From positions 1 through 64,000 of the forward strand of contig JAGSGY010000004.1 of assembly GCA_023954855.1 (NCBI GenBank): DNA of 64,000 bases. Reading direction: 5' to 3'. The stretch comes from Pseudomonadota bacterium (GTDB taxonomy: Bacteria; Myxococcota_A; UBA796; GCA-2862545). The notes below the pieces were generated by a model that saw only the letters and a program-made list of their open reading frames with translations, was not told where the DNA came from and did not search any database. Below are positions 18,415 through 37,622 of the stretch, piece by piece. The position numbers were made by a program, and so were the translations under genes. Within the stretch, counting starts at the first letter, position 1, and the number at the start of each line of letters is the position of its first letter.

Positions 18415-18440
18415 ACCGTCCCCCAGATAGACTTGGCGTC

Positions 18441-19811
18441 ATGAACAAAGGCACCCTGCTGATCGCGGACGACGAAGAGCTGATTCGCTGGTCGTTGTCC
18501 CAACATCTTCAATCCGTTGGCTACACGGTCGAGCAAGCCGAGGATGGCGAGGCCGCCCTGGCCGCTGTCCACCAGGTCGGCCCGTCTGCTGTGCTGCTCG
18601 ACGTCAAGATGCCGAAGGTCGACGGCATCGAAGTCCTCCGGCGACTTCGCGAGTCCGGAAACGACATCCCCGTGATCATGATCACGGCGTACGGCGCGGT
18701 TGAGACGGCCATCGAGGCCACCCGCCTGGGCGCCACTGCCTACATGCAGAAGCCCTTCGACCTCGCCGAGGTCGAGCTCATCGTCGAGAAGGCGCTCCGC
18801 GAGTACAAGCTCGAGCAGCGGGTTCGCTACCTCGAGGTCTCGCGCAGGCGCGGCTACCGTGGATTCATCGGCCAGGCGACGTCCCTGAATCCCGTCTTCG
18901 AGACCCTCAGGCGCCTCGAGTCGGTCGACGCCCCCACGGTCCTCATCACCGGCGAGTCGGGCACCGGAAAGGACGTCCTTGCACGCGCCATCCACCGCTC
19001 GGGCCCCCGCAGCAGCCAGCCCTTCATGGAAGTCGACTGCGCGGCATTGCCCGAGAATCTCATCGAGAGCGAGCTCTTCGGTCATGAGCGGGGCTCGTTC
19101 ACCGACGCTCACCAGCTCAAGCGCGGCCTGTTCGAGGTCGCCAAGGGCGGCATCGTCTTCTTGGACGAAATCGGCGAAATGACGCTCGCCACGCAGGCCA
19201 AGTTGCTGCGCGCCCTCGAGAACCGCACCTTCAAGCGCGTCGGCGGCGTGGCGAAGATCGCGATGGACGTCGCCATCATCGCTGCGACGAACCGAGACTT
19301 GAAGGCCGAGATCGCGGCGGGCAACTTCCGCGAGGACCTGTACTTTCGACTCAACGTCGTGCCGGTTCACGTTCCGCCGCTTCGGCAGCGCCCGGGGGAC
19401 GTCCCCCTTCTCGTCGAGCACTTCCTGCAGCACTTCAACAAGCGCTTCGGACGAAACATAGAGAGTGTGGCTCCCGACGCCATGGAGCGCCTCGAGAGCT
19501 ACCCGTGGCCCGGCAACGTGCGCGAGCTTCGCAACGCGCTCGAGCGTATCTCGATCTTGCACCAGGACGCTGAGCTCGGCGACAGCGCCCTGCCGCCGGA
19601 GATTCGCTTCGCCGGCCGAGCCCAGTCCAAGGCGAGCAGCGCCTGTCCGTTCACGCTCCCGGAAGAGGGCATCGATCTCGAACAGGTCGAGCGCGGCTTG
19701 CTCGTTCAGGCGATCGAGCGCACAGGTGGAAACCAGTCGGCGGCCGCCAGGCTCCTCGGCATTAGCCGATACGCGCTGCGGTACCGCATGGACAAGTTTG
19801 ACCTGAAGTAG
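18441..19811 (+). CDS. NtrC-family sigma-54-dependent response regulator
   Basis: The protein has 456 residues from the ATG at 18441. Receiver 1-120 has D10/D11, phospho-acceptor D54 and K of MQKPF. The AAA+ domain is ~140-380: Walker A GESGTGKD, ELFGHERGSFTDA, Walker B IVFLDEIGEM, and the arginine-finger region. The sigma-54 contact loop reads GSFTDA (218-223) instead of GAFTGA. A Fis-type helix-turn-helix closes the protein (GNQSAAARLLGISRYALRYRM). It is the obvious partner of the globin-coupled histidine kinase 850 bp downstream, and sigma-54 promoters lie before safE and the usp-cco operon, its likely targets. Confidence 0.93.
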   Translation: MNKGTLLIADDEELIRWSLSQHLQSVGYTVEQAEDGEAALAAVHQVGPSAVLLDVKMPKVDGIEVLRRLRESGNDIPVIMITAYGAVETAIEATRLGATAYMQKPFDLAEVELIVEKALREYKLEQRVRYLEVSRRRGYRGFIGQATSLNPVFETLRRLESVDAPTVLITGESGTGKDVLARAIHRSGPRSSQPFMEVDCAALPENLIESELFGHERGSFTDAHQLKRGLFEVAKGGIVFLDEIGEMTLATQAKLLRALENRTFKRVGGVAKIAMDVAIIAATNRDLKAEIAAGNFREDLYFRLNVVPVHVPPLRQRPGDVPLLVEHFLQHFNKRFGRNIESVAPDAMERLESYPWPGNVRELRNALERISILHQDAELGDSALPPEIRFAGRAQSKASSACPFTLPEEGIDLEQVERGLLVQAIERTGGNQSAAARLLGISRYALRYRMDKFDLK

Positions 19812-19933: not shown

Positions 19934-19982
19934 GAAGTGGGTGAAAAGACCCGCGTGTGAGTCCGACAACGCTCCAGGACCA

Positions 19983-19996
19983 GGCACGGCCTTTGC
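19983..19996 (+). promoter_or_regulatory. Sigma-54 (-24/-12) promoter of safE
   Basis: The sequence reads AGGCACG-GCCT-TTGCA, with GG at 19983-19984 and GC at 19995-19996, the invariant 10-base separation. Only the first base departs from the TGGCACG-N4-TTGC consensus. The ATG of safE lies 24 bases after the -12 GC. Confidence 0.75.
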
Positions 19997-20019
19997 ATGC
20001 AGGCGGAGACGGAGAACGC

Positions 20020-20658
20020 ATGACTCTCGCTCCTCTCATCGCCGCCGGGCTCGCCGGGCTCGCCGGCTCACCGCATTGCGTCGGAATGTGCGGCCCCTTC
20101 GCCGCCGCTGCGAGTCGCACGGGTGCGGGAGGCGTCGCGTGGCACGCTGGGCGTCTTGTGACCTACGCAACGCTCGGGGCCCTAGCCGGCGCGCTTGGCA
20201 GTGCCATGCCTGGTCCGACGTGGCTCGTCCGCGGTCTCGGTGCCCTGCTGTTGATCGGCTTCTCCGCCCGTCTGGCCGGTTTCATTCCGGAGTTCCACCT
20301 CGCCTCTGTCCCCGGCCTCCAGCGAGCGCTCACGCGCGCTGCCCGACTGGAGGGTCCGCTGGGGAGTGGGGTGTTTGGCGCCCTAGCGGGACTGATGCCC
20401 TGCGGACTCGTGTACGCCGCCCTTGCCGTGCCCATCGCGGCCGCGGAGCCCACGGTTGGCGCCGTGTCGATGGTCGCCTTTGGCCTCGGCACTATCCCGC
20501 TCCTCGCACTGCTCTCGGGCACCGTGCAGGGCCTGATTCGCAAGTCCAAGGCTGCCCGCTACGCCCTCGCGGCTACGGTGTTGGTCACAGGCCTCGCCTC
20601 GATCTCCACCCGTGCGCCGGCTCCACCAGGAGAGGCACCGCACTGCCACGAAGAGTAG
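20020..20658 (+). CDS. SafE/TauE-like membrane protein of the cbb3-oxidase maturation type
   Basis: The protein has 212 residues from the ATG at 20020 (ribosome site GGAGACGGAGA). About six membrane helices are present, with the family hallmark GSPHCVGMCGPFAAA in helix 1 (two Cys and a His) and a matching LAGLMPCGLVYAA in the second half. It ends in CHEE after a Pro-rich tail. Genes of this type (sulfite exporter TauE/SafE family, DsbD-like fold) often sit beside cco genes and are thought to act in copper or haem delivery to cbb3 oxidase; that role is inferred here. It is convergent with the globin kinase gene. Confidence 0.85.
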   Translation: MTLAPLIAAGLAGLAGSPHCVGMCGPFAAAASRTGAGGVAWHAGRLVTYATLGALAGALGSAMPGPTWLVRGLGALLLIGFSARLAGFIPEFHLASVPGLQRALTRAARLEGPLGSGVFGALAGLMPCGLVYAALAVPIAAAEPTVGAVSMVAFGLGTIPLLALLSGTVQGLIRKSKAARYALAATVLVTGLASISTRAPAPPGEAPHCHEE

Positions 20659-22110
20659 CTAGGCCTTGCGCAGCCGTAGCAGGAAGGTCGCCCCGCCCAG
20701 GCCGGAAGTCTCGGCCAAGAGTTCGAGTCCGCCGCCCATCGAAGATGCCGCCTTCTTCGACACCGCCAGCCCGAGGCCCGTGCCCTGGGTCTTGGTCGTC
20801 ACGAAGGGCTCAAACAAGCGACCGCGAACGCTCGGTTCGACACCGGGACCGTCATCTTCGACACGGACCAGGCCAGGCTCGACGGTGAGGCGAACTCGCT
20901 CTCCAGCGGCGAGGCCGTTGACGCCGAGGTTGAGCAAGATCTGCTCGACCAAGTGGGGGTCTGCGAGCGCCGTCCCCTCGCCGACCACCTCGACAGCCCC
21001 CGGAAGAAGCTCGGCGACCTCCCTCGCAACCACGTGCAAGTCGAGCTCGGAGAGCTGCGGGTCTGCGGGTCGGGCGAACGCGAGCAGCTCGGTCACCAGC
21101 CCGTTCAGGCGCTTGATCTGCTGCTGAACCTTCTGCATGACCGCGCGGCGTGGGTCCTCGGCAGAGAAGCCCATCGAGAGCACCTGCACGGCACCCGAGA
21201 TCCCCGCCAGTGGGTTTCGAATCTCGTGTGCGACGGCCGCCGACAGCTCACCGAGCTTGGCCAACGCCTCGGAGCGCTGAAGCCGCGCCTCCATGTCGAT
21301 GGCGTCAGTGAGTTCCTCGATATGCAGCAGCACATCGGCCTCTTCGTGCTGCAAGGGCACAACGTCGATGCGGAACTGACGCACCTGACCCGCGATGGCC
21401 GTGTCGGCCCGCAAGATGCGGATGTCGCGGCCTGACATTCGCGCCCGTTCGACCGCTTCTCCGAGCTCTGCCGCCTCGATGAGCTCCGGCGGAAGCGCAT
21501 CGCGCCAGTGCAGCCCGAGCATCGGAGAGCTGCCGAACAGACGATAGGTCGGCCGCGTGGCGCTGATCACGCCGCCCTGTGCATCGAGAAGCAACACCGT
21601 GACCGGGAGCCGCCCGATGAGCAGGTCCTGAAGCGTACGCAGCTGCTCGAGCTCATGCTGCTCCATGTAGGCGTTGGTCATCACCGCGGCGTCGAGCGTC
21701 GTGATGCGGCGCACCGAGACAAGAAGCTCCGCCACACCGGAGTCAAGCTCACTGAGCGCAATGCCCGTCAGATGCTCGACAATCACCGCCATCGCCGTTG
21801 AGACGTACCGGGGGGGCAGGCCGACCTCAACATGCCGGTGACCGACGTGGGCCCGTCGCTGAAAGTAGCGGTCGTCGTGAGGCCCGCTGATCATCTCTTC
21901 CAGCCACCGCCCCATGCTCGCGCGCAGACGCTCGAGCTGGGCATCATCCTTGATGATTCTCCGCGTCCCATCGTGCGCCATGACGCGGCTGTAGAAGCCG
22001 TCGACGATGGACTTCGTGTGCGGCTGGACCGTGGGCCAAAACACCGCGAGACGCGCCGAGTCTTCTGGCTCAAATCCGACGTAGTGAACGAGCTCACGCC
22101 AGCTGCCCAT
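20659..22110 (-). CDS. Globin-coupled sensor histidine kinase (haem oxygen sensor, NtrB-like)
   Basis: The protein has 483 residues from the ATG at 22110, preceded by GGAGGG. Residues 1-155 are a protoglobin domain: Y40 in the B-helix D-G-F-Y-S position (distal haem pocket) and H93 in HVGHRHVEVGLPPRY (proximal haem ligand), the pattern of globin-coupled sensors; the Y-H spacing of 53 nearly equals that of AfGcHK from Anaeromyxobacter (Y45/H99). A PAS-like segment follows (~165-270), then HisKA with H295 in AAVAHEIRNPLAG and a full HATPase (LNLGVNGLAAG, DDGPGVE, GTGLGLAVS). There is no membrane helix, so it should be a soluble O2/NO/CO sensor. It is divergent from usp-cco (169 bp between starts) and close to the NtrC-type regulator. 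Confidence 0.93.
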   Translation of the reverse strand: MGSWRELVHYVGFEPEDSARLAVFWPTVQPHTKSIVDGFYSRVMAHDGTRRIIKDDAQLERLRASMGRWLEEMISGPHDDRYFQRRAHVGHRHVEVGLPPRYVSTAMAVIVEHLTGIALSELDSGVAELLVSVRRITTLDAAVMTNAYMEQHELEQLRTLQDLLIGRLPVTVLLLDAQGGVISATRPTYRLFGSSPMLGLHWRDALPPELIEAAELGEAVERARMSGRDIRILRADTAIAGQVRQFRIDVVPLQHEEADVLLHIEELTDAIDMEARLQRSEALAKLGELSAAVAHEIRNPLAGISGAVQVLSMGFSAEDPRRAVMQKVQQQIKRLNGLVTELLAFARPADPQLSELDLHVVAREVAELLPGAVEVVGEGTALADPHLVEQILLNLGVNGLAAGERVRLTVEPGLVRVEDDGPGVEPSVRGRLFEPFVTTKTQGTGLGLAVSKKAASSMGGGLELLAETSGLGGATFLLRLRKA

Positions 22111-22152
22111 GCAGCCCTCCAGGCGACCCTCATATGCCACCGTTCTAGATGT

Positions 22153-22170
22153 TGTGCGAATTACCACACA
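22153..22170. promoter_or_regulatory. Candidate upstream activator site (TGTG-N10-CACA) before usp-cco
   Basis: TGTG at 22153-22156 and CACA at 22167-22170 flank 10 bases, 72 bp upstream of the sigma-54 -24 element and in the divergent gap with the globin kinase gene. It shares its layout with the site before safE. Confidence 0.45.
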
Positions 22171-22241
22171 CGCCGGGGCCATCTGACCCAGAGGTCGCCG
22201 CTCGATGGCCGAAACATGCCCACGCAGGCCCATTCCAGACC

Positions 22242-22256
22242 TGGCACGATCCGTGC
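22242..22256 (+). promoter_or_regulatory. Sigma-54 (-24/-12) promoter of the usp-cco operon
   Basis: TGGCACG (22242-22248), 4 bases, then GTGCT with GC at 22255-22256. GG and GC are 10 bases apart and the -24 box is perfect; -12 has G for the first T of TTGC. The usp ATG is 24 bases after the GC, and a GAGCGAGGAGG ribosome site lies between. Confidence 0.75.
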
Positions 22257-22279
22257 TTTGGGAGAGCGAGGAGGCCCTC

Positions 22280-22720
22280 ATGAAACTCTTGCTCGCGCTC
22301 GATCTCCACGACAACCCCGAGACGCTCGTCGACCAAGCGGTCGAGTGGACCCAGCGTTCGAAAGGCAAACTGTCCCTAGTGTTCGTCGAAGAACTTGGCG
22401 AAACCTGGGCTGTGGGCATTCATGATCCGACGGTCGTCAGTCTCCTCGAGACCGAGCGCACCGCCATTCGCGCCCGCCACCGTGAGCGCCTCGCGCAGCT
22501 GCTTGAGCGCATCCCCGAAGACCTCCGCGGCGACGCGGAGGTGGTGGCGGGTGTCGCCTGGAACGCCGTTGTCGAGGCCGCCAAACCCTACGACCTGCTG
22601 CTCGTCGGCACGCACGGTCGCAAGGGACTCGCCCATTTCTTCCTTGGCAGCGTCGCTGAGCGCATCGTCCGCGCCTCGTCCTGCTCTGTCCTCGTTCTGC
22701 GCCCGCCGGCGGAGGCCTAA
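22280..22720 (+). CDS. Universal stress protein, first gene of the cbb3 oxidase operon
   Basis: The protein has 146 residues from the ATG at 22280. It is a single UspA domain with D8 in the first strand and the ATP-binding signature G-x2-G-x9-G-S ([18 protein letters not shown]). Its TAA overlaps the ccoN ATG by one base (TAATG). Usp proteins are often co-expressed with microaerobic respiration genes; the role here may be signalling or protection under low oxygen (inferred). Confidence 0.9.
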
Positions 22721-24165
22721 TGTCCAATTCACCCGATTCGCGACCCACGTCGCCCATCCAGTACGATGACGGCATCGTCAAGATGTTCATCGGCGCCACC
22801 ATGTTGTGGGGCGTCGTTGGCATGCTCGTCGGAGTCATCCTGGCGTTGCAGCTGGCCTGGTGGCCCGCCAACACCGGACTTCCGTACCTCACCTTCGGCC
22901 GGCTTCGCCCGCTGCACACGAACGCGGTCATCTTCGCCTTCGCGGGCAACGCGATGTTCACGGCCATCTACTACTCGATGCCGCGACTGCTCAAGGCGCC
23001 GATGTGGTCTGCGGCACTGTCGAAGTTCCACTTCTGGGGCTGGCAGGCCATCATCGTGTCCGCAGCGGTCACGCTTCCGCTGGGTCTCACCCAGGGCAAG
23101 GAGTACGCCGAGCTGATCTGGCCGATCGACCTCGCCATCGCCGTGGTCTGGGTCGCCTTCGCGATCAACTTCTTCGGCACCATCCAGAAGCGTCAGGTCA
23201 AGCACCTCTACGTCGCCATCTGGTTCTACATGAGCTTCGTGCTCACGATTCCGGTGCTGCACATCGTCAACAACCTCGCCATTCCGGCCACGTTGACCCG
23301 CAGCTACCCGATCTACACCGGCATGACCGACGCGCTCATTCAGTGGTGGTACGGCCACAACGCCGTGGCCTTCTTCCTGACCACGCCGTTCCTCGGCATG
23401 ATGTACTACTTCCTCCCGAAGGCGGCTGACCGGCCGGTCTTCAGCTACCGGCTGTCGATCATCCACTTCTGGGCGCTGGTGTTCCTGTACATCTGGGCCG
23501 GCCCTCACCACCTGCTCTACTCCGCGCTCCCCGACTGGGTGCAGACGACCGGCATGGTGTTCAGTGTCATGCTCATCGCTCCCTCCTGGGGCGGCATGCT
23601 CAACGGTCTGCTGACGCTTCGCGGCGCCTGGGACCGCGTCCGGCAGGACCCCATCCTCAAGTTCTACGTCGTCGGCGTCTCGTTCTACGGAATGAGCACC
23701 TTCGAGGGACCGATGATGTCCATCCGCGCCGTCAACGGCCTCGCCCACTACACCAACTGGGTCGTCGGCCACGTGCACTCCGGCACTTTGGGCTGGAACG
23801 GCATGATGACGTTCGGCATGATCTACTGGCTCGTGCCGCGCCTGTGGGGCCGCAAGATGGCCAAGGAGAGCTGGGTCGGACTGCACTTCTGGCTCGCCAC
23901 GCTCGGCATCATTCTCTACATCGTCTCGATGTGGGCAGCTGGCATCACCGAAGGCTTGATGCTTCGCGCCATCGACGAGAACGGCCTGCTCATGTACGGC
24001 CAGTTCCTCGACGTCGTTCGCACCTTGGACCCGTTCCACTGGGCGCGCTTCCTCGGCGGCTCGATGTTCCTCACGGGCATCTGCATGATGTTCGTCAACG
24101 TCCTCCTCACTGTGCGCGGAGGCGGCGAGGCTGTCTCGTCCGCTGCACCCGTCCCCGCCAAGTAG
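22720..24165 (+). CDS. ccoN: cbb3-type cytochrome c oxidase subunit I
   Basis: The protein has 481 residues, full length for CcoN, with about 12 membrane helices. Conserved haem and copper ligands are visible: H in RPLHTNAVIF (low-spin haem b), WYGHNAV (CuB His with nearby Tyr), WAGPHHLLY (two CuB His), and HYTNWVVGHVHSG (haem b3 and low-spin haem ligands). It is the catalytic subunit, reducing O2 to water at the cytoplasmic membrane with high affinity. It is translationally coupled to usp. Confidence 0.97.
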   Translation: MSNSPDSRPTSPIQYDDGIVKMFIGATMLWGVVGMLVGVILALQLAWWPANTGLPYLTFGRLRPLHTNAVIFAFAGNAMFTAIYYSMPRLLKAPMWSAALSKFHFWGWQAIIVSAAVTLPLGLTQGKEYAELIWPIDLAIAVVWVAFAINFFGTIQKRQVKHLYVAIWFYMSFVLTIPVLHIVNNLAIPATLTRSYPIYTGMTDALIQWWYGHNAVAFFLTTPFLGMMYYFLPKAADRPVFSYRLSIIHFWALVFLYIWAGPHHLLYSALPDWVQTTGMVFSVMLIAPSWGGMLNGLLTLRGAWDRVRQDPILKFYVVGVSFYGMSTFEGPMMSIRAVNGLAHYTNWVVGHVHSGTLGWNGMMTFGMIYWLVPRLWGRKMAKESWVGLHFWLATLGIILYIVSMWAAGITEGLMLRAIDENGLLMYGQFLDVVRTLDPFHWARFLGGSMFLTGICMMFVNVLLTVRGGGEAVSSAAPVPAK

Positions 24166-24202: not shown

Positions 24203-24901
24203 ATGTCTACACACCAAGAACACTGGCACCGCAGGATGCTCGAGCACCGCTCGACGCTGTTCGCAGTGCTCACCGTCGCCGGTATCAGCGTCGGGTCCCT
24301 GGTCGAGATTGTCCCGATGTTCGCCCAGAGCACAGAGGCCGAGGCCGCAGCCGCCAACATCGAGCCGTACAGCGCGCTCGAGCTGGCGGGCCGCGACATC
24401 TACCTACGCGAGGGCTGCTACACCTGTCACTCCCAGATGGTTCGCCCGATGCGTGCCGAGACCCTTCGCTACGGCGAGTGGTCGCGCGCCGAGGAGTACA
24501 CCTGGGACCGTCCGTTCCAGCTGGGCTCGCGCCGCATTGGCCCGGACCTGCACCGCGTCGGCGGCAAGTACCCGGACGCGTGGCACTACGAGCACATGCG
24601 GGATCCGCGCTCGATGTCCACGGACTCGGTCATGCCGAACTACCCGTGGCTGCTCGACTGGAGCATCGACTCCGCCGACATCGGCGCGTCGATGAAGGCC
24701 CACCAGCGCGCTGGAACCCCGTACACCGACGAGCAGATTGCCGACGTCGCCACCGCCCTCCAGACCGAGGGCCAGGTCATCGTCGACAACCTGGCGGAGC
24801 GCAACATCACGACGACCCCCGACAAGGAAATCGTGGCCTTGATCGCGTATCTGCAGCGCCTGGGTACCGACCGTCCGAGCATGGCAGGAGGTGAGAAATG
24901 A
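24203..24901 (+). CDS. ccoO: cbb3-type cytochrome c oxidase monohaem subunit II
   Basis: The protein has 232 residues. One N-terminal membrane helix (~18-38) and a single haem c site C-Y-T-C-H in EGCYTCHSQMVRPM; an axial Met is likely in SVMPNYPW. The GPDLHRVGGKYPDAWHYEHM stretch is diagnostic for CcoO. It passes electrons to CcoN. It overlaps ccoQ by ATGA. Confidence 0.96.
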   Translation: MSTHQEHWHRRMLEHRSTLFAVLTVAGISVGSLVEIVPMFAQSTEAEAAAANIEPYSALELAGRDIYLREGCYTCHSQMVRPMRAETLRYGEWSRAEEYTWDRPFQLGSRRIGPDLHRVGGKYPDAWHYEHMRDPRSMSTDSVMPNYPWLLDWSIDSADIGASMKAHQRAGTPYTDEQIADVATALQTEGQVIVDNLAERNITTTPDKEIVALIAYLQRLGTDRPSMAGGEK

Positions 24902-25072: not shown

Positions 25073-25597
25073 ATGGCTGACGAACACGTCCCCGATCAGC
25101 TCCTGGGCCACTCCCAGGACAACGACGGAATCCAAGAATACGACAACGACCTGCCAGACTGGTGGCTCGGCCTGTTCTTCATCTGCATCATCTGGGCGGG
25201 CTTCTACGTCGCCTACTACCATGGCTACATGCAGACCTCGCAGGCGCAGCTGTACGACGAGGAAGTGGCCGCGGCGATCGTCGCCTACGGCACGCCCGAA
25301 GAGGTCGACCTCGCATCGGTCGAGATCACACCTGAGATGGTGGCGGCCGGCGAGCCGGTCTACGTGAAGAACTGCGTGATCTGCCACGGCGAGACCCTCG
25401 AGGGAGGACCCGGTGGCGGACCCTCGCTGGTCGATGCCGAGTGGATTCACGGCGGCAGCTACCCCGAGATCGTGCACACGGTCTCCGAGGGTGTGCCGGC
25501 GAAGGGCATGCTGACCTGGGGCCCGATCCTCGGCGAAGAGAAGGTCCAGCAGGTCTCGGCCTACGTTCTCTCCAAGGCCCAGGCGGCAGGTAACTAA
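25073..25597 (+). CDS. ccoP: cbb3 oxidase subunit III, short form with one haem c
   Basis: The protein has 174 residues. The N-terminus (HDNDGIQEYDNDLP-like: DNDGIQEYDNDLPDWWLG) and membrane helix are typical of CcoP. Only one haem c site is present (C-V-I-C-H in YVKNCVICHGETLEGG) with a Met ligand near PAKGMLTWG. Canonical CcoP has two haem c domains in ~290 residues; here the first domain is absent and a short acidic spacer follows the helix. The remaining domain matches the distal haem domain. It follows ccoQ by one base. Confidence 0.93.
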   Translation: MADEHVPDQLLGHSQDNDGIQEYDNDLPDWWLGLFFICIIWAGFYVAYYHGYMQTSQAQLYDEEVAAAIVAYGTPEEVDLASVEITPEMVAAGEPVYVKNCVICHGETLEGGPGGGPSLVDAEWIHGGSYPEIVHTVSEGVPAKGMLTWGPILGEEKVQQVSAYVLSKAQAAGN

Positions 25598-25598
25598 G

Positions 25599-26930
25599 AT
25601 GGGCGTCTTTCACGGCGAGCGCGAGTGGGTCTACCCCAAAGATGTGACAGGGCGGTACCACCGTCTGCATCGCGGGACGGCCTTCTTGCTGCACATCTGG
25701 CTCCTGCTCGGGCCGTGGCTGAACTTTCAAGGTCGGCCGCTCTTCCGCTTCGAGCTGGGAACCCGTCGCATCTACGCATTCGGAGGCATCTTCACCGCGC
25801 ATGACGGCGTGCTGATCATGCTCTCCGCACTGCTGGCCGCCGTGGCCCTGTTCTTCTTCACCTCCCTCTTGGGACGTCTGTGGTGCGGCTTCGGCTGTCC
25901 ACAGAGCGTCTTCATCATCAACTGGGTGCTTCCGCTCGAACGTCTCATCGAAGGCGACCGAGCGGAGCGCGTGCGGCGCGACAAGAAGGGCGTCCGCACG
26001 AGCACCACCGCGCGAAAGGCCGTGAAGTTCATCGCCTTTGCGCTGATCGCCCTGCTTGTCTCTGGCTCATTCATGGGCTTCTTCGTGGACCCTCGCCTGC
26101 TCTGGACGGGCGGCGCCACGACCGGCAACTACGGCGTTCTCGCCTTCTTTACCGTGCTCTGGTTCGTCGACTTCGTCTGGTTCCGCGAGCAGCTGTGCAT
26201 CTACCTGTGTCCCTACGCCCGCTTTCAGAGCGTGCTCATGGATGAGGACACTCTGACCGTCGCCTACGACATGAACCGCGGCGAGCCCCGCAAGAAGGGC
26301 AAGCTCACCAGCGGCGAAGACCACTGCGTCGACTGCAACCGCTGTGTCGTCGTCTGCCCCACGGGCATCGACATCCGCGACGGTTTTCAGCTCGAGTGCT
26401 GGTCGTGTGGACGCTGTGCCGACGCCTGCGTCGACGTCATGGACCGCTTCGACCTGCCGAGCCTGGTCAGCTACCAGACCGAGGCCGACCTCGCCGGCCG
26501 CCCGACCCGCTGGGTCCGTGGCCGCACGCTGGTCTACGCCGGCGCCTTCACCGCCCTGCTCGCCCTCTTCGCTGCGAGCCTCGCATTCCGTGCCCCCTTC
26601 GAGGCGACTGTGAACCGCGCCCCCGGAACCCTGTACGTCGTCGACGACGAGGGCTTCGTGAAGAACACCTTCCTCGTGCACATCATCAACACGTCGGCCG
26701 ACGAACACACCTTCACGATCAACGTCGCGGGAATCGAAGGGGCCGAGGTCACGGCACCGGTCACGACCATCGAGTCCACCGATGAGGCCATCATTCCGCT
26801 CGTCGTGCGCGCGAGTCCAGACAGCGCATCGATGCGCACCATGCCCATCGTCGTGACCGTACTCAGAGACAACAAGGCGGTTGAGGTCCCCGTGACCTTC
26901 AAGACCAATGCCCAAGACGGAGGCCTCTAA
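25599..26930 (+). CDS. ccoG: cbb3 oxidase maturation ferredoxin-type protein
   Basis: The protein has 443 residues. Four or five membrane helices surround W-C-G-F-G-C-P and two [4Fe-4S] Cys clusters: HCVDCNRCVVVCPTGIDIR and LECWSCGRCADACVDVM. An Ig-like periplasmic C-terminal domain follows (~330-443). CcoG (FixG/RdxA) is a cupric reductase supplying Cu(I) for CcoN. Its TAA overlaps the next gene start (TAATG). Confidence 0.95.
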   Translation: MGVFHGEREWVYPKDVTGRYHRLHRGTAFLLHIWLLLGPWLNFQGRPLFRFELGTRRIYAFGGIFTAHDGVLIMLSALLAAVALFFFTSLLGRLWCGFGCPQSVFIINWVLPLERLIEGDRAERVRRDKKGVRTSTTARKAVKFIAFALIALLVSGSFMGFFVDPRLLWTGGATTGNYGVLAFFTVLWFVDFVWFREQLCIYLCPYARFQSVLMDEDTLTVAYDMNRGEPRKKGKLTSGEDHCVDCNRCVVVCPTGIDIRDGFQLECWSCGRCADACVDVMDRFDLPSLVSYQTEADLAGRPTRWVRGRTLVYAGAFTALLALFAASLAFRAPFEATVNRAPGTLYVVDDEGFVKNTFLVHIINTSADEHTFTINVAGIEGAEVTAPVTTIESTDEAIIPLVVRASPDSASMRTMPIVVTVLRDNKAVEVPVTFKTNAQDGGL

Positions 26931-27058
26931 TGCGCCACTGGCCAGTCGAGCTGCTCATCGCGGGAGCCGTTGTGCTCGCCATGAACGTGACCTTCATCTA
27001 CTTGGCGGTCAACAACCCAGACCCCGTCGTCGAGAGCTATGAGAGCGAAGCGAGGTGA
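26930..27058 (+). CDS. ccoH: Very short CcoH/FixH-like membrane protein
   Basis: This 42-residue protein has one membrane helix (VELLIAGAVVLAMNVTFIYLA) then VNNPDPVVESYESEAR, which aligns with the membrane segment and first outside residues of FixH/CcoH (pattern N-x-x-x-x-x-L-A-x-x-x-x-P-x-x-V-x-x-x-Y). The usual ~120-residue periplasmic FixH domain is missing. It starts in the ccoG stop (TAATG) and ends overlapping the ccoI start, in the canonical ccoGHIS position. Confidence 0.75.
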   Translation: MRHWPVELLIAGAVVLAMNVTFIYLAVNNPDPVVESYESEAR

Positions 27059-29310
27059 GCAGCATGCCCCAGATCTCTGGCTGTCCGCACTGCGCGGCAC
27101 CGGTCGAGGGCGATGAGGGCACCTTTTGCTGCTCGGGCTGCGAGCTCGCGTACGCCGTACTCTCCGATGCAGGGCTGCAGGGCCACTACCTGGAGCGCGA
27201 GGTCCCAGGACTTCGGCCCCTGCCCCCGGTCCGACGCGACTGGTCGCTCGTCGCGCTGACCGAGCACGATGGCAGCTGCGAGGCCGTGCTGGCGGTGGAT
27301 GGCTTGACCTGCGCATCGTGCGTGAGCGTCGCTGAGGCCCTGCTGGAACGTCAGGACGGGGTTCAGGCCGCCGAGGTGAGCTTTGCCACGGGCAAGGCTC
27401 GGGTACGCTTCGACCCCACGGCAATCACCCTGGACGACCACGCAAGGACCCTCGCACGGGTCGGCTACACCCTTCGCCCGGTCGCCGCCGAGCCCACTGT
27501 GGACCACGACCCGCTGGTTCGGCTGGGCATCGCGCTGTTCTGCGCCGCCAACGTGATGGGCTTGTCGATTCCGATCTACCTTGGATGGCTCGAAGGCATG
27601 GACCTACGCTTCGAGCGCCTCTTTGCCTGGGGCTCCCTGCTGCTCGCTACTCCGGCCACCCTGGTCGCAGCCGCCCCCTTCTTTCGTTCTGCCTGGCATG
27701 GCCTGACCGCGCGCACACTGCACATGGACCTACCGCTCGCCCTCGCCATTGGCGGGCTCTACGTGCACGGCATCTACGCGACGTTGGCGCACAGCGAGGC
27801 GTACTTCGACTCTCTGACGATGCTCATCGCCCTGCTGCTCGTCGGACGTGCCCTCGAGGCTCGTGGCCAGCGCAACGCAGCAAGCGCAGCGGACCTTCTC
27901 GGCTCGGCCCTCCCCGGCGTCGTCACCCGCGTGGAAGCGCTCGGAGACGCGGTCGTCCCCACCTCAGACCTGCGCGTGGGCGACCGCGTGCGCATGACTG
28001 GCGGCGACACGGTCCCAGGCGACGGCATCATCGATCAGGGGGAGGGCCGGGCATCCTTGGCCCTCGTCACCGGCGAGAGCGTGCCGGTACCGGCCATTCC
28101 CGGTACCCAGCTGCCGGCGGGCGCCGAGCTCCTCGACGGTGACATTGTCTTGCGGGTGCGAGAGATGGGTGCGGGCACCCTGATCGGGCAGATGCAGGCC
28201 GCGCTCACGCAGACCTCGACCTCGCGAAACCCCACGCAGGCCGACCGTCTGGCCCCTGCCTTTACCGCTGCCACCATCCTTCTCGGCCTGGCCGCACTCG
28301 CGCTGACGCCATGGATTGGCAGTGCCGAGGCGATGCGCAGAGCCGTCGCGGTATGGGTCGTCGCCTGCCCCTGCGCCCTGTCCCTCGCTCGTCCGCTCGC
28401 GGTGTCGGCCGCACTCTCGGGACTCGCCCGCCGAGGCCTGTGGCTGCGCTCCGGCGATGCCCTACTCGCACTCAACGATGTGCGCACCGTGGCCCTCGAC
28501 AAGACCGGCACCCTCACCGAAGCCCAAGCCCGCGTCGTGTCCGCCGAGGACGAAGCGCTGCGGATAGCTGCGGCCCTCGAGGTTGGCTCGAGCCACCCCA
28601 TCGCGCGGGCCATCGTCTCCGAAGCGGTGGGTCGCGGCATTCCCCTTCCTCGGGCCGCCGAGATCGAAGAAGTCCGTGGCCAGGGCGTGCGCGGCAGTGT
28701 CGATGGCCGGCTCTGGGAAGTGCGAAGCGCCGGAGTCGACGCCGTCCGCGTGGTCAGCGACGACCTCGAGCACCTCATCCGCCTTGCCCACGTGCCACGG
28801 GCCTCGGCAGGACCTGCCCTGCAAGAGCTGCAGACCACAGGCATTGACCTGCGCATCCTCACCGGCGACCGCGCAGAGGCCGCGTCCAGGCTGGCGGAGC
28901 AGCTGAACATCCCCGCAAGCGCCGTCCATGCCGAGCTGTCGCCGCTCGAGAAAGTGGACCTGGTCGATGCGCACACCGCCTTCGTCGGCGATGGCCTCAA
29001 CGATGGCCCGGCTCTGGCCGCAGCAGCGGTCGGCCTGGCCGTGGCTCACGGTGCGCCAAGCTCCATTGCCGCAGCCGACGGCGTCGTTCGGGCGGGCGCA
29101 TTGGGCGTACTGACCGATGCGCTTCGCACAGCTCGACGCACACAGCGCACCATCTCGGCGAACCTCGTGCGATCGGCCGCTTACAACGTGCTTGCGGTTG
29201 CCGCCGCCATGGCCGGGCTCGTCAATCCACTCGTCGCGGCCATCTTGATGCCCATCTCAAGCCTGCTCGTACTCGCCACGTCAGCGAAGCTGGCTAAGGG
29301 AGACGCATGA
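27055..29310 (+). CDS. ccoI: Copper-transporting P1B-type ATPase for cbb3 oxidase assembly
   Basis: The protein has 751 residues from the GTG at 27055 (ATG at 27064 is the alternative). The N-terminus holds a Cys cluster (CPHC ... FCCSGCELAY) characteristic of CcoI, then an HMA domain with G-L-T-C-A-S-C. The membrane CPC motif (VACPCALSLARP), phosphorylation site DKTGT, a TGES actuator motif and GDGLNDGPAL are all present. It exports Cu to the periplasm for the CuB site. It overlaps ccoS by ATGA. Confidence 0.96.
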   Translation: MSSMPQISGCPHCAAPVEGDEGTFCCSGCELAYAVLSDAGLQGHYLEREVPGLRPLPPVRRDWSLVALTEHDGSCEAVLAVDGLTCASCVSVAEALLERQDGVQAAEVSFATGKARVRFDPTAITLDDHARTLARVGYTLRPVAAEPTVDHDPLVRLGIALFCAANVMGLSIPIYLGWLEGMDLRFERLFAWGSLLLATPATLVAAAPFFRSAWHGLTARTLHMDLPLALAIGGLYVHGIYATLAHSEAYFDSLTMLIALLLVGRALEARGQRNAASAADLLGSALPGVVTRVEALGDAVVPTSDLRVGDRVRMTGGDTVPGDGIIDQGEGRASLALVTGESVPVPAIPGTQLPAGAELLDGDIVLRVREMGAGTLIGQMQAALTQTSTSRNPTQADRLAPAFTAATILLGLAALALTPWIGSAEAMRRAVAVWVVACPCALSLARPLAVSAALSGLARRGLWLRSGDALLALNDVRTVALDKTGTLTEAQARVVSAEDEALRIAAALEVGSSHPIARAIVSEAVGRGIPLPRAAEIEEVRGQGVRGSVDGRLWEVRSAGVDAVRVVSDDLEHLIRLAHVPRASAGPALQELQTTGIDLRILTGDRAEAASRLAEQLNIPASAVHAELSPLEKVDLVDAHTAFVGDGLNDGPALAAAAVGLAVAHGAPSSIAAADGVVRAGALGVLTDALRTARRTQRTISANLVRSAAYNVLAVAAAMAGLVNPLVAAILMPISSLLVLATSAKLAKGDA

Positions 29311-37576: not shown

Positions 37577-37591
37577 TGGCACGCCCCTTGC
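37577..37591 (+). promoter_or_regulatory. Sigma-54 (-24/-12) promoter of amt
   Basis: TGGCACG-CCCC-TTGC is a perfect match to the consensus, with GG at 37578-37579 and GC at 37590-37591. The amt ATG is 31 bases downstream. Confidence 0.9.
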
Positions 37592-37622
37592 TTCGGGGCG
37601 GTTGTCACCGGAGCCCCCCCTC

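Follow-up and report, generated by a model that had tools for sequence, protein, structure and literature searches.

A cbb3 oxidase operon probably driven by a globin-coupled kinase and an NtrC-family regulator through a sigma-54 promoter

In the stretch of bacterial DNA analysed here (64,000 nucleotides, referred to as the window), an operon for a cbb3 oxidase is probably driven by an adjacent globin kinase and an NtrC-family regulator through a sigma-54 promoter; the probability of this reading is put at about 0.8. Judged by sequence comparison, the wiring appears to be related to that of the Myxococcus NmpRSTU system and to be built from different parts.

The operon lies on the forward strand and, by Pfam and NCBIfam, contains six genes in the following order: usp, which encodes a universal stress protein (22280–22720; PF00582); ccoN, which encodes subunit I of the oxidase (22720–24165; TIGR00780 above cut-off); ccoO (24203–24901; PF02433); ccoP (25073–25597; PF14715 and PF13442); ccoG (25599–26930; TIGR02745 above cut-off); and a gene for a ccoI-type copper P-type ATPase (27055–29310; TIGR01525 above cut-off). 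The overlap of usp and ccoN at TAATG, given in a preliminary description of this DNA, is present at 22718–22722; in the sister genome G001, of the same genus, the overlap reads TGATG. The same description had usp heading the oxidase operon, which is true here but is not conserved: the present genome (G000) and G001 are the only ones of the order in which usp lies before ccoN. As the usp-first arrangement is confined to this genus within the order, usp was rejected as the head of a conserved operon; farther out, in the class or phylum, usp precedes ccoN in G060, G260 and G278. The ccoN frames outside the order are mostly 700–900 amino acids long, a length suggestive of a ccoN-ccoO fusion, and those within the order are mostly shorter and separate.

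The candidate promoter, TGGCACGATCCGTGCT (22242–22257, forward strand), reads TGGCACG-N4-GTGCT, so that the perfect -24 element and the correctly spaced -12 GC claimed before usp can be seen in the sequence. It differs from TGGCACG-N4-TTGCW by one mismatch, with G in place of the first T in TTGC. The ATG of usp, at 22280, lies 22 bases downstream of the box, and the transcript would be expected to start near 22268. Taken alone, the box is not beyond chance, as the window holds 10 matches to TGGCACG-N4-TTGCW with at most two mismatches and 11.07 are expected; it is significant because of its position and its conservation. The comparison set comprised 58 relatives, including the genome itself. 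Whether related genomes keep the boxes had been set beforehand as the refuting test, and they are kept at the start of the cco operon: a box scoring at least 12.9, with weights of our own that follow the published consensus, lies upstream of the cco operon in 31 of the 34 genomes from the order in which the DNA before ccoN is readable. Of these boxes, 29 sit 2–72 bases before the extrapolated ccoN start and two (in the genus with usp) sit before usp. When the 140-base upstream stretches were shuffled by a Markov procedure, 43 of 6800 shuffles reached 12.9. A box is present in 21 of the 59 cco promoters from outside the order. The genome also contains rpoN (PF04552, E 7.5e-59). On this comparison, the box before usp is confirmed to be real, and the interpretation as a sigma-54 promoter for the oxidase operon is supported.

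Upstream of the box are two palindromes of the form nTGTGnGAnnTCnCACAn (TGTG-N8-CACA), a motif found by palindromic expectation maximization (EM) on 30 upstream stretches from the order, with a log-likelihood at width 18 of 175, compared with 36–42 in six shuffled sets. The first, TTGTGCGAATTACCACAC (22152–22169), scores 19.5 bits and lies 90 bp upstream of the -24 element; the second (22174–22191) is weak (8.4 bits) and lies 22 bp from the first. Such tandem palindromes, spaced by 20–24 bp (mostly 22 or 23), occur in 26 of the 31 promoters of the order, and no palindrome of at least 12 bits was found in six of the 31; the other 25 count in part by construction, as these promoters served for training. 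When the matrix was trained with the window and G001 held out, the position at 22152 ranked first in the whole window and that at 19937 (19937–19954; 12.7 bits) ranked second. At 12 bits, palindromes are present in 25 of 33 cco promoters within the order and in none of 59 elsewhere in the phylum; the 25 are partly so by construction, as most of them trained the matrix, whereas the 0 of 59 is not. A further genome of the same order (G274) has a box scoring 13.3 and no palindrome. As sequence, the tandem palindromes supply the upstream enhancer expected for an activator ATPase. A genome search for exact TGTG-N8-CACA was abandoned in favour of the matrix, as it mixed in another class of dyad (TGTGACC...GGTCACA); many of the 51 exact places in this genome, e.g., L281–L284, are of that different form, TGTGACC-NN-GGTCACA.

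The preliminary description was upheld as to the box, but overlooked the adjacent globin kinase, the NtrC-type regulator and the enhancer palindromes, i.e., the elements that supply a mechanism. The genes run in the order regulator, safE-like gene, divergent kinase, usp. The regulator (18438–19811, forward strand) has a receiver, a sigma-54-activator AAA+ domain and a Fis-type helix-turn-helix (PF00072, PF00158 and PF02954); its GAFTGA-type loop, GSFTDA, reads G(S/A)FTDA among 25 aligned regulators, with F and T invariant. The safE-like (DsbD_2) membrane protein (20020–20658, forward strand; PF13386) probably has a role in copper or cytochrome maturation. The kinase (20659–22110, reverse strand), divergent from usp, comprises Protoglobin, PAS, HisKA and HATPase domains (PF11563, PF08448, PF00512 and PF02518). 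Its globin part shows a match (E 4e-20) to 5ohe, the structure of AfGcHK, and the proximal heme histidine H93 and the distal tyrosine Y40 are conserved at 90% or more in 27 aligned sequences, with both absent from L055. The catalytic half is closest to the AtoS group by NCBIfam (PRK11360, with PRK11361 for the regulator; both below cut-off). In a tree of the catalytic part, the globin kinases of Nannocystis, G219 and G250 are of NmpS type (100/99) and those of the window's group are not; the globin-domain tree was poorly resolved and was not used. A profile search of contigs with the kinase alignment used kinase-box patterns and returned mostly ordinary histidine kinases, so its use was limited to Nannocystis exedens and Anaeromyxobacter terrae. 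In Nannocystis, G250 and G219 (L293, L300 and L301), a globin kinase with an NmpS-like catalytic part adjoins an NmpR-type regulator, which can be seen as a merged NmpU/NmpS form. The present genome also encodes a second protoglobin protein (L273, contig C67), with a C-terminal STAS-like (stressosome) domain by eye and no kinase.

Homologues of the kinase with the globin part were found in 31 of the 58 genomes and ccoN in 34, a count that leaves out a 32%-identical match in G025. The two occur together in 27 genomes, the kinase alone in four, ccoN alone in seven and neither in 20 (n = 58; Fisher p 2.9e-6). Of the 27 genomes having both, 20 carry kinase and cco genes together in one stretch, and kinase and regulator are together in 25 of 31; in G001, the regulator is on a different contig from the kinase and cco. 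No sigma-54 box was found in three of the 34 cco promoters (G031, G008 and G032). L055, the kinase homologue of G031, has neither heme position, and the ccoN frame of this genome is 745 amino acids long, as if fused; in G008 and G032, no globin kinase was found at the homologue-search threshold. Loss of the box in these three genomes fits a correlated loss with the globin kinase. Four other genomes without a globin kinase (G003, G010, G015 and G019) keep both box and palindrome, and therefore another kinase must serve there; at the loci in G019 (L093) and G010 (L097), where the regulator adjoins cco and the promoter is intact, a replacement sensor was sought and not found.

The same pattern of box and palindrome recurs at other genes. 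A second sigma-54-like box, AGGCACGGCCTTTGCA (19982–19997, forward strand), is followed after 38 bp by the likely safE ATG (20020), and the palindrome at 19937 precedes this box by 45 bases. With a palindrome cut-off of 10 bits, box and palindrome stand before the gene itself at 5 of 25 loci for the regulator, 7 of 31 for safE and 1 of 29 for the kinase. Throughout the present genome, a palindrome of at least 12 bits lies within 180 bases of seven of 49 distinct TGGCACR-N5-TGCW sites, against a background of 15 positions in 181,251 scanned. Behind the seven sites lie the usp-cco operon, two CBS-domain genes, one of them followed by usp, and genes for an AMP-binding enzyme, a DUF892 protein, an Ig-like protein and a lectin-domain protein, of which the last two may be chance matches. 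CBS homologues were found at 25 places in the relatives and the genome itself; of the 23 evaluated, 14 have a sigma-54 box and seven have a palindrome as well. The only perfect match to the sigma-54 consensus in the window, TGGCACGCCCCTTGCT (37577–37592), is elsewhere, about 30 bases before a gene named amtB-like from reading alone. The amtB gene is a textbook target of sigma-54. Upstream of this site there is no notable TGTG palindrome (1.7 bits), which points to a different activator, presumably NtrC. Three further sigma-54-like sites in the genome (L353, L357 and L360, on contigs C114, C132 and C144) lie in a repeated sequence and are followed by DNA that is almost the same at each; this may be a family present in several copies, with a sigma-54 promoter of its own.

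The genes and their domains, the conserved boxes and palindromes, the linkage and the regulon pattern are the observed parts from which a mechanism can be proposed. The usp-ccoNOPGI operon would be transcribed from the promoter at 22242–22257. The neighbouring NtrC-family regulator would be the activator, with oligomers forming on the tandem TGTG-N8-CACA palindromes at 22152–22191, about 70–90 bp upstream, and the bound regulator would remodel the sigma-54 polymerase. The divergent globin-PAS-HisKA kinase would read O2 by means of its heme-binding protoglobin domain, such that, as O2 falls, the regulator becomes phosphorylated and the high-affinity oxidase, the copper and assembly genes, and the nucleotide-binding Usp and CBS proteins would be made. 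In this scheme the start site, the pairing of kinase with regulator, the binding of heme and O2, and the sign are what we infer. FixL is a kinase inhibited by O2. With the globin directly on the partner kinase, induction at low O2 would need O2 to inhibit the kinase, as in FixL and in reverse of AfGcHK, which is more active with O2 bound (PMC8697598). Thus, O2 would be expected to switch the present kinase off. A stand-alone REC-HisKA kinase at C28:59327, 38% identical to the NmpS-like protein of A. terrae, could be an intermediate between kinase and regulator.

Control by FNR or FixK is the common arrangement for cbb3 oxidases, and on that account the sigma-54 match could have been coincidental. 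This is next to negligible in probability: FNR-like boxes (TTGAY-N4-RTCAA, at most one mismatch) occur in 1 of the 34 upstream regions, with 0.38 expected, whereas sigma-54 boxes occur in 31, and control by FNR was rejected, as its boxes are not enriched. Control by FNR/FixK is also cited in PMC11841059, and the same source bears on the view, taken in the preliminary description, that control of cbb3 by sigma-54 departs from the usual: unusual it is, but not unprecedented, having been published for Myxococcus xanthus (PMC11841059). It is also conceivable, if improbable, that a different activator reads the palindrome and drives the sigma-54 box, and that the adjacent pair controls something else. 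The genome has four NtrC-family matches at E 1e-95 or better, the window regulator included, and several genomes have the pair at a distance from cco (e.g., L048, L050 and L053). However, the palindrome occurs in the order where the regulator clade lives and in none of the 59 cco promoters from the rest of the phylum, and the 5 of 25 cluster loci with box and palindrome before the regulator gene look as autoregulation would.

A closer candidate is the Myxococcus system itself. As described in PMC6211767 and PMC11841059, M. xanthus Nmp consists of the globin kinase NmpU, the receiver protein NmpT, the hybrid kinase NmpS and the NtrC-like NmpR. NmpR recognizes GCGCA-N5-TGCGC, depends on sigma-54, and has as targets a cbb3 operon together with a Usp gene and a CBS gene; the sign is reversed at the NmpS step (PMC11841059). 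Control of cbb3 by sigma-54 below a globin kinase is, therefore, already published in the latter source. An NmpU-like globin kinase acting by an NmpS/NmpT relay and NmpR on the present promoter would share this logic and these targets, and the REC-HisKA protein elsewhere in the genome would be in keeping with it. However, the window regulator belongs to a clade (100/100) whose sister is another regulator of A. terrae, whereas the A. terrae NmpR-like protein, used in this comparison in place of M. xanthus NmpR, groups with the regulators that adjoin the Nannocystis, G219 and G250 globin kinases (99/97); the best A. terrae match of the window regulator is other than the NmpR-like protein, and the recognition helix differs. 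The NmpR site is missing from all 31 promoters of the order at zero or one mismatch, and exact sites occur in 9 of 59 cco promoters outside the order (0.27 expected) compared with 0 of 33 within it. These Nmp-type promoters in the phylum suggest that the present bacterium belongs near the myxobacteria. A PAS domain is present in the kinase, whose catalytic part resembles AtoS and is not of NmpS type, and no NmpS (REC-HisKA) or NmpT (REC-REC) gene was seen next to the kinase gene. By comparison, the Nmp-like cluster of A. terrae (L292) contains a 382-amino-acid globin kinase without PAS, a REC-REC protein, a REC-HisKA protein and an NmpR-like regulator (some domains by eye). Identity with NmpRSTU was rejected on regulator clade, catalytic type of the kinase and operator sequence, and is held to be very improbable. 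Among titles and abstracts on globin-coupled kinases, protoglobin with cbb3 or NtrC, sigma-54 with cbb3, and NmpR (subscription journals being mostly outside the coverage), none on the present arrangement was found.

The preferred reading, control by the adjacent globin kinase and NtrC-family regulator, would be a second, differently built O2-sensing route through sigma-54 to a high-affinity oxidase, and predicts a function for a family of globin-PAS kinases. The NmpU/NmpS relay and the direct fusion form a matched pair in which the output sign of a globin sensor can be compared, and together they suggest a regulon that swaps its activator and operator while promoter class and targets stay.

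Compared with known systems, FixL/FixJ-FixK and FNR are alike in placing the same oxidase under heme- or O2-responsive control; FixL carries its heme in a PAS domain, whereas a globin is predicted to do so here, and the polymerase with which FixJ and FixK work is of the sigma-70 type. Pairs of the AtoSC/NtrBC type resemble the present one in the catalytic half and the regulator, and differ in that here there are a globin sensor and respiratory targets. AfGcHK (Anaeromyxobacter sp. Fw109-5; PDB 5ohe) likewise has an N-terminal protoglobin with proximal histidine and distal tyrosine, followed by HisKA/HATPase. However, kinases of its type (382 amino acids in A. terrae) have no PAS and serve receivers of NmpT/NmpS type, whereas the present kinase has a PAS domain and is AtoS-like. 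NmpRSTU and the present system both have a protoglobin kinase on top, an NtrC-like activator, sigma-54 promoters with two tandem palindromes each, and a regulon with a cbb3 operon, Usp and CBS. They differ in that here NmpU-NmpT-NmpS give way to one globin-PAS kinase beside the regulator, the regulator belongs to another clade, the promoters carry TGTG-N8-CACA palindromes rather than GCGCA-N5-TGCGC, and the sign of the kinase must be opposite, if low O2 induces. Possibly, with the chances evenly balanced, a sigma-54 cbb3 promoter passed within one phylum from an NmpR-type globin-kinase/NtrC pair, reading GCGCA-N5-TGCGC, to an unrelated AtoSC-like pair, reading TGTG-N8-CACA; the regulon (cbb3, Usp and CBS) would have been kept, and a four-protein, sign-inverting relay would have been replaced by a single kinase with a globin of inverted sign, in which the oxy-globin inhibits.
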